Below the pieces are notes generated by a model. That model saw only the letters and a list, made by a program, of their open reading frames with translations. It did no database searches and was not told the DNA's origin. Shown piece by piece: positions 3,911 through 49,858 of a DNA stretch of 64,000 bases (the stretch's first letter is position 1; every line of letters begins with the position of its first letter). The DNA comes from Rhodobacter sp. (GTDB lineage Bacteria; Pseudomonadota; Alphaproteobacteria; Rhodobacterales; Rhodobacteraceae). The DNA is taken from assembly GCA_027484985.1 (NCBI GenBank), contig JAIXRW010000025.1:62001-126000 (forward strand), given 5' to 3'. Position numbers and translations under genes: made by a program.

Positions 3911-4239
3911 ATGCAATGGCGGGTGGAAACGCTTGACGCGCGTGTGGATCGCGAGATCGCGGCGCTGTCCGATGGACTGAGGGCGCGGATCATCCGGTTG
4001 CTGGAACTGGTGGCCGAGCGGGGGCCGCAGGCGCTGCACGAGCCGCATGCGAGCCATCTGGAGGGACCGCCTTGGGAATTGCGCGGTCCAAGGCGCAGGG
4101 GGGCATCGCGCGGGGAATTTATGTTGCGGTCAGGGGGCGGCGTGTGGTTGTCCCGCACGCCTTGGTGAAGAAGACACAAAAGACACCGGGGCGGGCGCTG
4201 GCCATCGCACGTGAGCGAATGGAGGAGGTGGAAGGGTGA
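3911..4239 (+). pseudogene. HigB/RelE-like (Gp49 family) toxin, frameshifted
   Basis: Frame 1 reads MQWRVETLDARVDREIAALSDGLRARIIRLLELVAERGPQALHEPHASHLEGPPWELR; shifting frame near 4082-4090 gives SKAQGGIARGIYVAVRGRRVVVPHALVKKTQKTPGRALAIARERMEEVEG*, whose TGA overlaps the antitoxin ATG. Confidence 0.8.
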
Positions 4240-4508
4240 TGGAACTTTCGGAGCTGAAACGCCAACTCATGGCTGATCCGGCCTTTGTCGCCGCCTATGA
4301 CGAGGCAGTGGAGGAATATGCGGCGCTGGAGGCGATGATAAAGGCGCGGGCGGGGGCGGGGGTGACGCAGGCCGAACTGGCCGAGCGGATGGGGACCACG
4401 CAATCGGCCATCGCGCGGCTGGAGAGCGGGCGGGTTTCGCCTTCGGTCGCGACCTTGCAGAAATATGCGCGGGCGCTGGGCAAGCGGTTGAAGATCGAGA
4501 TGGTGTGA
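4239..4508 (+). CDS. XRE-family HTH antitoxin (HigA-like)
   Basis: MELSELKRQLMADPAFVAAYDE...VTQAELAERMGTTQSAIARLESGRVSPSVATLQKYARALGKRLKI, an HTH_3 domain. Confidence 0.85.
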   Translation: MELSELKRQLMADPAFVAAYDEAVEEYAALEAMIKARAGAGVTQAELAERMGTTQSAIARLESGRVSPSVATLQKYARALGKRLKIEMV

Positions 4509-4544: not shown

Positions 4545-4657
4545 ACGATTTCTGACGCAGAAATCGTGGCGGAATTTGACGCAAATTCCGCCTGCCTCGA
4601 CGGACGGGCACCGTTTCCTGCGTCAGGAAACGGCGCGAAATCTGCGCCAGATTTCGC
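4545..4657. repeat. Cluster of four mini-hairpins with TGACGCA/TGCGTCA/TGCGCCA centres
   Basis: 4545-4567 ACGATTTC-TGACGCA-GAAATCGT; 4568-4592 GGCGGAATT-TGACGCA-AATTCCGCC; 4611-4633 CCGTTTCC-TGCGTCA-GGAAACGG; 4635-4657 GCGAAATC-TGCGCCA-GATTTCGC. Confidence 0.9.
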
Positions 4658-4658
4658 T

Positions 4659-6302
4659 TCAGACCAGACGGCTGACATCAACCGCCGCACGCACGAAATC
4701 GGCAAAAAGCGGGTGGGGGGCGAAGGGTTTCGATTTCAGTTCGGGGTGGAACTGGACGCCGATGAACCACGGGTGATCCTTGACCTCGACGATCTCGGGC
4801 AGGCGGCCATCGGGGGACATGCCCGAGAAGATGAGGCCGCATTTTTCAAGGCGGTCGCGGTATTTGATGTCCACCTCGTAGCGGTGGCGGTGGCGTTCCT
4901 CGATGGTGGTGGTGCCGTAAACCGCGGCCACTTTGGAGCCTTGGGCGAGGCTGGCGGTATAGGCGCCGAGGCGCATGGTGCCGCCCTTGTCATCGGTCAG
5001 TTTGCGGGCGACGACATGGTTGCCCTGCACCCATTCCTTGAGGTGGTAAACCACGGGCGTGAAACGCTTTTCGCCGGCTTCCACATCAAATTCCTCGGAG
5101 CCTGCGTTCTGCATGCCCACAAGGTTGCGGGCGCTTTCGATGACGGCCATCTGCATGCCGAGGCAGATGCCCAAATAGGGGATTTTCTTTTCGCGGGCGA
5201 ATTGCGCGGCCTTGATCTTGCCTTCGGTGCCGCGTTCGCCAAAGCCGCCGGGGACGAGGATGGCGTGGAAGTTTTCAAGGTAGGGGGCGGGGTCTTCGCG
5301 TTCGAAGATTTCAGCGTCGATCCATTCGGCGCGGACGCGGGTGCGGTTGGCCATGCCGCCATGGGTGAGCGCCTCGGCGATGGATTTATAGGCGTCTTCC
5401 AGTTGGGTGTATTTGCCGACGATGGCCACGCGCACCTCGCCCTCGGCATGGACCAGACGGTCCATCACATCTTCCCAGCGGGTGAGGTTGGGTTTGGGGG
5501 CGGGGGTGATGCCGAAGGCATCGAGCACGGCCTGGTCGAGGCCTGCGCGATGATAGGCGAGGGGGGCTTCGTAGATGGTTTTCAGGTCATAGGCGGGGAT
5601 GACGCTGTCTTTGCGGACGTTGCAGAAGAGGGCGATCTTTTCCCGTTCGCGGTCGGGGATCGGGTGTTCGCTGCGGCAGACCAGCACATCGGGGGCGAGG
5701 CCGATGGATTGCAGTTCCTTGACGCTGTGCTGGGTGGGTTTGGTTTTCAACTCGCCGCTGGCCGAAAGGTAGGGCAGGAGCGTGAGGTGCATCAGGATGC
5801 TTTGCCCGCGCGGGCGTTCGTGGATGAACTGGCGGATGGCTTCAAAGAAGGGCAGGCCTTCGATATCGCCCACGGTGCCGCCGATTTCGCACAGCATGAA
5901 ATCAACCTCGGAATCGCCGATGCGGAGGAAGTCTTTGATTTCATTGGTGACGTGGGGAATGACCTGAATGGTCTTGCCGAGGTAGTCGCCGCGGCGTTCC
6001 TTTTCCAGCACGTTGGAATAGATGCGGCCGGACGAGATGCTGTCGGTGGTGCGGGCCGAAACCCCCGTGAAGCGTTCGTAATGGCCAAGGTCGAGGTCGG
6101 TTTCGGCGCCGTCATCGGTGACGAACACCTCGCCATGTTCGAAGGGCGACATCGTGCCGGGATCGACGTTGAGATAGGGATCAAGCTTGCGCAGGCGGAC
6201 GGTGTAGCCGCGCGCCTGTAGCAGGGCGCCCAAGGCCGCCGAGGCAAGGCCCTTGCCCAGCGAGGACACCACGCCGCCTGTGATGAAGATGTAGCGTGCC
6301 AT
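4659..6302 (-). CDS. pyrG: CTP synthase
   Basis: [33 protein letters not shown]...; glutamine amidotransferase motif [12 protein letters not shown]. Confidence 0.98.
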
Positions 6303-14876: not shown

Positions 14877-14920
14877 TTCATCCTTGTCCAAATACTCCGG
14901 GGTCCGGGGCAGGGCCCCGG
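14877..14920 (-). repeat. Hairpin + 22-nt tag element, copy a
   Basis: TTCATCCTTGTCCAAATACTCCGG tag (minus orientation) with hairpin CCGGGGC-agg-GCCCCGG at 14904-14920. Confidence 0.8.
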
Positions 14921-23595: not shown

Positions 23596-23679
23596 GAGTA
23601 TTTGGGCAAAGGTGAAGGGGATCGGTCATGCCTTTCACCTTTGCCCAAATACTCCGGGGGAATCGGCCCTTGGGCCGAT
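23596..23679. repeat. Hairpin + tag element, copy c (tag as perfect 21-bp inverted pair)
   Basis: GAGTATTTGGGCAAAGGTGAA 23596-23616 and its reverse complement 23634-23654; hairpin ATCGGCCC-tt-GGGCCGAT 23662-23679. Confidence 0.9.
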
Positions 23680-47998: not shown

Positions 47999-48724
47999 AT
48001 GACCTATTGCGTGGGGCTTTTGTTGAACGAGGGCATGGTGCTGTTGTCGGATACGCGCACCAATGCGGGGCTCGACAATATCTCGACCTATCGCAAGATG
48101 TTCACCTTTGAAGACCCGGGCGAGCGGGTGATCGCCATCATGACGGCGGGCAGCCTTTCGGTGACGCAGACCACCATCGCGCGGCTGCGCGAGGCGGTCG
48201 ATGACCCCGAGGCGAGCGAGGAAAGTTCGATCCTGAAGGCGCCGACAATGCTGAAAGTGGCCGATATGGTGGGCAACATGCTGTCGAAGGTGCGCGGCGA
48301 GATCGACACCAAGCTTGCGGCGATGGAACAGGGCGCGTCGGCATCGATGATCGTGGCGGGGCAGCGGCGGGGCGGCGCGATGCGGCTGTTCCTGATCTAC
48401 CCCGAGGGGAATTTCATCGAGGCGACCGAGGACACGCCGTTCTTGCAGATTGGCGAGCATAAATACGGCAAGCCGATTCTGGACCGTGTGGTGAAGCCCA
48501 CGACCAGTCTGGCAGACGCGCAGAAGGCGGTGCTGTTGTCGATGGATTCGACGCTGCGGTCGAACCTGTCGGTGGGTATGCCGCTGGATCTGGCGGTGAT
48601 CGAGCGCGATGCGCTGAAAGTTGGCGTCAAGCGGCGGATCGAGGCGGGGGACGCGCAGTTCCGCGCCATGTCGGAGGCGTGGTCAAAGGCGCTGCGCGAC
48701 GGGTTCCAGCAGATCAACATCTGA
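47999..48724 (+). CDS. Proteasome-like Ntn-hydrolase, Anbu type
   Basis: MTYCVGLLLNEGMVLLSDTRTNAGLDNISTYRKMFTF; Thr directly after Met1; genomic context of CP-ATP-grasp / alpha-E / transglutaminase. Confidence 0.9.
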   Translation: MTYCVGLLLNEGMVLLSDTRTNAGLDNISTYRKMFTFEDPGERVIAIMTAGSLSVTQTTIARLREAVDDPEASEESSILKAPTMLKVADMVGNMLSKVRGEIDTKLAAMEQGASASMIVAGQRRGGAMRLFLIYPEGNFIEATEDTPFLQIGEHKYGKPILDRVVKPTTSLADAQKAVLLSMDSTLRSNLSVGMPLDLAVIERDALKVGVKRRIEAGDAQFRAMSEAWSKALRDGFQQINI

Positions 48725-48730
48725 GGGCGG

Positions 48731-48891
48731 CGAAAGATCTTTTGAAGATTTTTCGCAAATTCCTCTTGAAGGAATTTGGGAGCGAAATCTGACGCAGATT
48801 TCGCGCCGGAATTTGACGCAAATTCCGGGGGCTGGCTGCGGGGTACGGAATTTGCGTCAAATTCCGTTGCGTTTTCTGCGTCAGAAAACGC
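48731..48891. repeat. Cluster of six mini-hairpins, four with TGACGCA/TGCGTCA centres
   Basis: 48731-48755 CGAAAGATCTT-TTG-AAGATTTTTCG (1 mismatch); 48756-48778 CAAATTCCT-CTTGA-AGGAATTTG; 48782-48804 GCGAAATC-TGACGCA-GATTTCGC; 48806-48828 CCGGAATT-TGACGCA-AATTCCGG; 48845-48867 ACGGAATT-TGCGTCA-AATTCCGT; 48869-48891 GCGTTTTC-TGCGTCA-GAAAACGC. Confidence 0.92.
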
Positions 48892-48892
48892 C

Positions 48893-49858
48893 CTAGCGAT
48901 GCGCGTCGAACAGCGTGGCCGCCGAGTCGAAGAAGCGGCGGCGGTGGGCTGCGGTTTCCATCATGATCTCGTGCTCGGCCCCTTGGTACAGGTCGAGGCG
49001 GCCGGTTTTCCAGCCTGCCATGCGCAGGTGGATCGGAATGGTATCGACCACCTTTTCGGCGGTGCCGAGGGCGGTCAGGCAGGGTGTGTCGGGGGCGGGA
49101 AGGGTTGACAGCGCGCCGCATTCGTTCAGGGCCGCCTTGACCCAGCCAAGGCTGGGGCCGCCAAGGCAGAGGTCGCGATGGGCGGCGACCTGGCGGCGCA
49201 TGTAGTCCCAGACCGTGTGATCGGTGGTCAGCACATTGCCCTGCGCGGGGCTGGTCAGCACATAGCTTTGTCCCGTTGTGCCGGGCGCATAGCGGAAGGT
49301 CTGGCGCAGGGGGCCGATCAGCGCCCCCATCGCGCCGGTGAAGGGGCGCAGCCAAGGCGCGAGGTGGATGCCCCACATCGGGGCCGAGAAGGCCACCGCC
49401 TTGACCGGAAAGCCGCGCATGAGGGCGCGCAAGCCGATGGCGCCGCCCATCGAATGGCACAAAAGGTAAAGCGGACGCGGCAGGTCGCTGTTTTCGGCCA
49501 CCGACACAAGGGCGGCAAGGTCGCGCTGGTATTCGTCGAAATGGCCGACATGGCCGATCATGCGGTCGGGATGGGCGCGCGCGGCGAGGCCCTGACCGCG
49601 AAAGTCGATGGCAAGGGTTGCATAGCCGCGCGCGCCCAATTCGGCGGCGGCGCGGCCGTATTTCTCGATATATTCGGTGCGGCCGGGAAGCAGCAGGACG
49701 GTGCCCTTGCTGCCTTGCGGCCAAAGGCCGATGCGGACCTGCACGCCGTCGGAGGTGGTGGCCCAGACCGCATGGCCCCCTGCCGGACCTTCGGCCACTT
49801 CGGCAAAGAAGGGCGCGGGTGGCAGGGCGGCGGTTGCGGTGCGGGCGGTCGCGGTCAT
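48893..49858 (-). CDS. Alpha/beta hydrolase (monoacylglycerol lipase / lysophospholipase-like)
   Basis: LLPGRTEYIEKYGRAAAELGARGYATLAIDFRGQGLA...YLLCHSMGGAIGLRALM. Confidence 0.92.
   Translation of the reverse strand: MTATARTATAALPPAPFFAEVAEGPAGGHAVWATTSDGVQVRIGLWPQGSKGTVLLLPGRTEYIEKYGRAAAELGARGYATLAIDFRGQGLAARAHPDRMIGHVGHFDEYQRDLAALVSVAENSDLPRPLYLLCHSMGGAIGLRALMRGFPVKAVAFSAPMWGIHLAPWLRPFTGAMGALIGPLRQTFRYAPGTTGQSYVLTSPAQGNVLTTDHTVWDYMRRQVAAHRDLCLGGPSLGWVKAALNECGALSTLPAPDTPCLTALGTAEKVVDTIPIHLRMAGWKTGRLDLYQGAEHEIMMETAAHRRRFFDSAATLFDAHR

Follow-up and report, generated by a model that had tools for sequence, protein, structure and literature searches.

The window analysed here, i.e. a stretch of 64,000 nt, contains pyrG (CTP synthase; 4659..6302, minus strand) and, convergent to it, an HTH_3 antitoxin gene (4239..4508, plus strand). 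An array of hairpins (4545-4657) nearly fills the gap between them, taking up 113 of the 150 nt that separate the antitoxin stop (4508) from pyrG. The four hairpins reported here by the first-pass annotation were borne out; each is a triloop closed by a perfect stem, of 10, 11, 10 and 10 bp in turn. Hairpin 1 (ACGATTTC-TGACGCA-GAAATCGT; 4545..4567, stem 10 bp) and hairpin 2 (GGCGGAATT-TGACGCA-AATTCCGCC; 4568..4592, stem 11 bp) lie on the plus strand, are of type F and share the triloop ACG, F denoting the TGACGCA centre and R its reverse complement (TGCGTCA). A spacer (4593..4610), which shows no kinship with the spacers of the other arrays of this genome, separates them from hairpin 3 (CCGTTTCC-TGCGTCA-GGAAACGG; 4611..4633, minus strand, stem 10 bp, triloop CGT), which is of type R on the plus strand and of type F for pyrG, and from hairpin 4 (GCGAAATC-TGCGCCA-GATTTCGC; 4635..4657, minus strand, stem 10 bp, triloop CGC), likewise of type R on the plus strand and the first hairpin past the pyrG stop. 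As had also been annotated, the array ends 1 nt from the stop codon of its owner gene pyrG (the complement of 4659-4661); the antitoxin stop is 36 nt away. Upstream of the antitoxin gene, a Gp49-like (HigB-type) toxin gene (3911-4239) is split over two reading frames, both of which match PF05973, so that the toxin appears to be frameshifted while the antitoxin is intact.

A second array of the same kind, again in the order FFRR (48782..48891), lies 1 nt from the stop of an alpha/beta hydrolase gene (48893-49858, minus strand) and is flanked on its other side by a proteasome-fold gene (47999-48724, plus strand). Between the stop of the latter and the array there is a hairpin with a different loop (CAAATTCCTCTTGAAGGAATTTG; 48756..48778), preceded by an imperfect hairpin, GCGAAAGATCTTTTGAAGATTTTTCGC. 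The region past this stop (48722-48778) holds a hairpin twin with the tips TTTTGAA/TCTTGA, a type found in other genera, which adjoins the FFRR array of the opposite gene; a similar TTCGAA twin is found at L050:14565-14610. A second family of palindromes (GAGTATTTGGGCAAAGGTGAA ... TTCACCTTTGCCCAAATACTC, and likewise GAGGATATTTG) is dispersed over the window, at 14889, 17135, 23596-23654, 33189, 39062 and 42768; its sequence CAAATACTC occurs five times against 0.11 expected.

The first-pass annotation would have been contradicted by a family restricted to two clusters and not conserved in relatives, or by arms no more complementary than in shuffled sequence. Neither is the case. The genome (G000; 3.64 Mb, 91% complete) carries 29 multi-hairpin arrays or more; since a motif search was used to collect arrays, whose neighbourhoods were then fetched, the array counts given here are lower bounds. 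It contains TTCTGACGCAGAA 20 times and WWYTGACGCARWW 74 times, against 0 and 1 for the respective reversed controls. Arm complementarity goes far beyond chance: in 772 kb of fetched DNA, a scan making no assumption on the centre yielded 154 hairpins with a stem of at least 8 bp and a triloop, compared with 27 in shuffled sequence. A centre of the TG-RCR-CA type was present in 109 of the 154, and every other centre occurred at most three times.

The canonical unit is the palindrome F-F-spacer-R-R, seen in 76 arrays from this genome and public genomes, and most of the remaining arrays (FRR, FFR, FF, RR or FR) fit truncations of it. Within a half, the linker is almost always a single base, usually G, giving a pitch of 24 bp, and the spacer between the halves measures 2-58 nt. 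Spacers of different arrays are unrelated to one another, which argues against recent copying of the whole unit. The outer hairpin starts with G in 87% of cases, the usual foot being GCG, and the arm positions past the foot are filled by five-base words from a small vocabulary (AAATC, GAATT, ATTTC, TTTTC, AAGTC and others), position -4 being mostly T and position -3 a pyrimidine; the stems are A/T-rich below the loop. The centre had been described as fixed, and it is indeed mostly constant, with the F-strand loop ACG counted 352 times by a detector that demanded TG and CA on either side; however, GCG (64), ACA (20) and CACG (16) also occur. At three loci, half arrays are repeated in tandem with periods near 102-112 bp (L120:7205-7659, L020:9536-9868 and L078:3848-4114), indicating that the family can amplify locally.

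Adjacent hairpins avoid sharing an arm word. Hairpins 1 and 2 never do so (8.5 expected), nor do hairpins 3 and 4 (6.9 expected), and hairpins 2 and 3 share one in only 3 cases against 18.8 expected, while sharing between the non-adjacent hairpins 1 and 3 exceeds expectation (16 versus 7.5). In this genome alone there is one such adjacent pair versus 13.1 expected, and the exclusion holds in each species set taken separately. The second array of the window is an exception, as both inner hairpins carry GAATT, and an RNA folding program merges its hairpins 2 and 3 into one long helix. Neighbour exclusion is expected if each hairpin must fold alone, and deletion between identical adjacent repeats could also contribute to it.

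The stems change in matched pairs. Across 28 diverse half arrays, 97.9% of the cells pair, changes on both sides are found at 15 of the 20 pairs, double-change cells number 125 versus 34 in shuffles, and there are hardly any G-U pairs. Among 1484 base pairs compared at orthologous sites, 137 were altered on both sides yet remained Watson-Crick, versus 36 other changes. The pyrG array itself is present in about 11 species of the genus, including this one, despite differing downstream genes. In the first hairpin past the pyrG stop (hairpin 4 here), the arm word AAATC is found in all 11 species, with one copy mutated beside the loop. Four-fold sites of pyrG diverge by 25-58% among the carriers, yet the arms of the first hairpin are kept; the spacer changes freely among species. 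Together with the exclusion of identical neighbouring arms, the family-wide and orthologous-site compensation gives good support to the selection on structure proposed earlier. The arrays also preserve a natural archive of compensatory changes at many orthologous sites, which helps to separate structural selection from palindrome-correcting mutation. A strand-specific RNA constraint, sought through the direction of single G-U type imperfections, was not found, as these showed no preference for the sense strand of the owner (about 6 sense versus 9 antisense). The near-absence of G-U pairs fits use of both strands, since a G-U pair becomes an A-C mismatch when read on the opposite strand, and is equally compatible with a DNA-level process.

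The arrays abut stop codons. For 76 of 104 arrays the facing stop codon lies within 8 nt. Placement has one peak at -11, the stop codon then being the TGA of the hairpin centre itself, and another at -1, with the G of a TAG stop doubling as the first base of the stem; start codons are mostly at least 50 nt away. In this genome alone, a stop falls within -11 to +9 for 22 of 29 arrays. Within codirectional gaps, the array is no more than 9 nt from the stop side in 36 of 52 cases and from the start side in 4 of 52 (KS p 2e-18). Of 118 arrays, 50 sit in convergent gaps, which make up 15% of gene pairs overall and 18% of those with gaps over 100 bp, i.e. a 2.5-3-fold enrichment (p 2e-11 to 3e-8), and in many convergent gaps the array is the entire intergenic sequence; divergent gaps are depleted, with 13 arrays located there. 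These counts rely on gene ends from a simple codon-usage finder and on arrays of related species that are only partly independent. The owners are diverse chromosomal genes (e.g. dnaJ and genes for a P450, a pirin and an aminotransferase) and form no regulon. Single-owner arrays are FFRR in 45 of 80 cases, so that the un-owned half is usually kept, and 16 FFRR arrays have no facing stop nearby. Where a half has been lost from a single-owner array, it is more often the far one (FFR 12 and FF 8 versus FRR 5), a count which is suggestive but biased by the definition of ownership.

The motif is enriched in nearly all 19 sampled genomes of the genus, apparently Paragemmobacter (Rhodobacterales), whose members include Paragemmobacter straminiformis, P. 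amnigenus, P. ruber and P. kunshanensis. Copies per congener range from about 10 to 135, and the lowest counts come close to the background level in other genera. With a covariance model built on the half array, relatives were detected in 24 of 298 genomes and 23 of 297 genera of the family, and at 1e-5 there was no match in any sampled genome outside it, i.e. in other alphaproteobacterial families. In the other genera the unit is often a single twin, the arm words recur and many copies again lie past stop codons, with loops such as CG-ACG-CG (G198), RCG (G228), T-GCGC-A (G336) and TT-CGA-AA (G020). In two genera, the same gene even bears a twin with the same arm words and different loops (L188, L201). 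The twin-hairpin design, an arm vocabulary and the position after a stop codon are what is kept across genera. The idea of twin hairpins at every gene end in the family did not hold, as scans of 200 kb each in five other genera and one genome of another family gave one pair in total, and twins are therefore sparse. The centre-recognising factor suggested by the first-pass annotation has become a weaker proposition: among 212 comparisons of orthologous hairpins, 84 show different loops, so that the centre is not the most constant part, and other genera use different loops with the same arm words.

Array presence or absence varies at orthologous sites. ALTERNATIVES at the same sites: pyrG ends without an array carry a GC-rich or terminator-like hairpin in L054, L060 and L070, a single hairpin in L061 and no obvious hairpin in L067, and at some orthologous gene ends the second dispersed palindrome family stands in for the array. 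A genuine separate ordinary terminator was found at 1 of 115 array-owned ends versus 59 of 419 other ends (p 7e-6). The raw count at array-owned ends is 9 of 115 (p 0.08) and includes array hairpins that precede T-rich sequence; the depletion is thus significant only when the array's own hairpins are excluded. The first hairpin is followed not by a U tract but by a one-base linker, usually G, and then the next hairpin. At one locus from another genus (L277), a twin has an ordinary terminator behind it as a separate element.

Our preferred explanation, which we would put at about an even chance, is that the array acts as a bidirectional mRNA 3'-end element free of U tracts, which would fold in the transcript of either flanking gene and set or protect its end. 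We infer that RNA is the working form, each strand offering, directly past a stop codon, two 10-bp hairpins that are independent of each other and carry a small RCR loop. The hairpins of the nascent RNA would fold one after another, and a terminating ribosome would presumably melt the first and leave the second standing. By blocking 3'-to-5' exonucleases, the pair would fix or protect the 3' end of the transcript after Rho-dependent or unassisted release; it might also slow the polymerase, and would take the place of an ordinary intrinsic terminator. Because the FFRR palindrome serves both strands, it would be favoured between convergent genes. More tentatively, it is tempting to speculate on a wider class in the Rhodobacteraceae, i.e. 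bidirectional transcript-end elements made of serial mini-hairpins with neighbour exclusion, which would possibly replace U-tract terminators at many genes and be read by a dedicated factor. To our knowledge, transcript ending in high-GC alphaproteobacteria that lack obvious terminators has been poorly described, and a two-way end signal which needs no U tract and has a built-in rule against mispairing of adjacent hairpins would, if true, be of interest in this respect. Three further ideas on the mechanism found no support: kissing between the loops of F and R hairpins (within an array, the loop variants show no covariation), a C-rich spacer as a Rho-loading site (there is no clear skew of C over G) and a structured spacer (its stability is hardly above that of shuffles).

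The uneven copy number from one congener to another (about 10 to 135 motif matches) would also be explained by a non-autonomous palindromic repeat, BIME/REPIN or MITE-like, which spreads in the genome and survives mainly just after genes, where it is least harmful, any effect on RNA being secondary. Presence and absence at orthologous sites, arrays in divergent gaps, the whole FFRR unit retained with a single facing gene and half units in tandem at three loci (L120, L020 and L078) point the same way, and such a view may be partly true. As the full explanation we regard it as somewhat unlikely, since the surplus of arrays 0-8 nt from stops is sharper than tolerance alone would give, the copies are not near-identical and differ by paired changes, and the spacers are unrelated. 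Nor do the arrays appear to travel on mobile elements, as no match was found in viral contigs or in phage and plasmid collections, and no Y1/RAYT transposase scored above the cut-off in the genus (0 of 19 genomes). A MITE would be expected to show copies of the whole unit with target-site duplications, and a related transposase; here, the spacers are unrelated between copies, no precise empty sites were seen and the transposase comparison covered only Y1.

A role at the level of DNA appears less probable still. Here, the inverted repeats would extrude as cruciforms or single-strand hairpins and a protein would read the TG-RCR-CA tip, e.g. in chromosome organisation or in absorbing supercoils between convergent genes. 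The scarcity of G-U pairs, the imperfections without strand preference and the convergent-gap enrichment are all consistent with it, but it offers no obvious reason for the tight abutment to stop codons in codirectional gaps, the outward-reading order of the loops matches the direction of transcription, and the loops differ among orthologues and genera. It is very improbable that the perfect arms are kept mainly by mutation, i.e. by template switching that corrects imperfect palindromes, rather than by selection for pairing; such correction would indeed yield perfect Watson-Crick arms in which one-sided changes are few, yet it predicts neither the neighbour exclusion, the FFRR order and the 24-bp pitch nor the placement and the conserved arm words at pyrG. 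Ordinary intrinsic terminators in tandem would suit the post-stop position and bidirectional use between convergent genes, but are hardly credible given the lack of a U tract, the A/T-rich stems below the loop and the separate terminator behind the twin at L277.

REP and BIME palindromes are a known class of repeats. Like REP, BIME and REPIN elements, the arrays are dispersed intergenic palindromes in spaced inverted pairs, often 3' of genes and reiterated in tandem. In contrast to them, the arms vary with compensation instead of conserving a sequence, and the stop-codon abutment is far tighter. Membership of REP/REPIN-RAYT does not hold: the search for RAYT (Y1 transposase, PF01797), above cut-off in 0 of 19 congeners, was positive in 5 of 14 control genomes. 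Inverted pairs are present (FFRR in 76 arrays); the arms are not one sequence. REP/REPIN hairpins have a 5' GTAG/GTGG tetranucleotide at their foot (PMC2817692), which is absent here, the array hairpins beginning with SCG after a stop codon or one-base linker. Rfam gave no match above the gathering score in the window, and no description of a matching family was found in the open-access literature searched.

In the puf mRNA of Rhodobacter, intercistronic and 3'-UTR tandem stem-loops past the stop codon stabilise the transcript and have been proposed to act as an exonuclease barrier. The likeness to the array lies in this arrangement and in the related genus; the array is in contrast a repeated palindromic element at dozens of genes and not a single locus. 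The uptake sequences of Neisseria (DUS) and Haemophilus (USS) form inverted pairs that serve as terminators, and they too combine a short genus-specific word with hairpins after genes. There the fixed word makes up the arms, whereas in the array it is the tip and the arms vary.

Inverted repeats past stop codons are a known class in Escherichia coli and mostly terminators (PMC6060812), and bidirectional terminators after stop codons or between convergent genes are known for E. coli and Zymomonas (PMC7566282, PMC6060812). Position, hairpins and two-way layout are shared with the array. However, an intrinsic terminator has a G/C-rich stem and then a U tract; the array has two or four hairpins in series, joined by one-base linkers, without U or A tracts. 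The array stands between post-stop inverted-repeat terminators and REP/BIME palindromes. At dozens of genes in the genus, a four-hairpin palindrome sits right past the stop codon and its stems evolve by matched changes; this has the look of a hitherto undescribed two-way 'end of message' signal.
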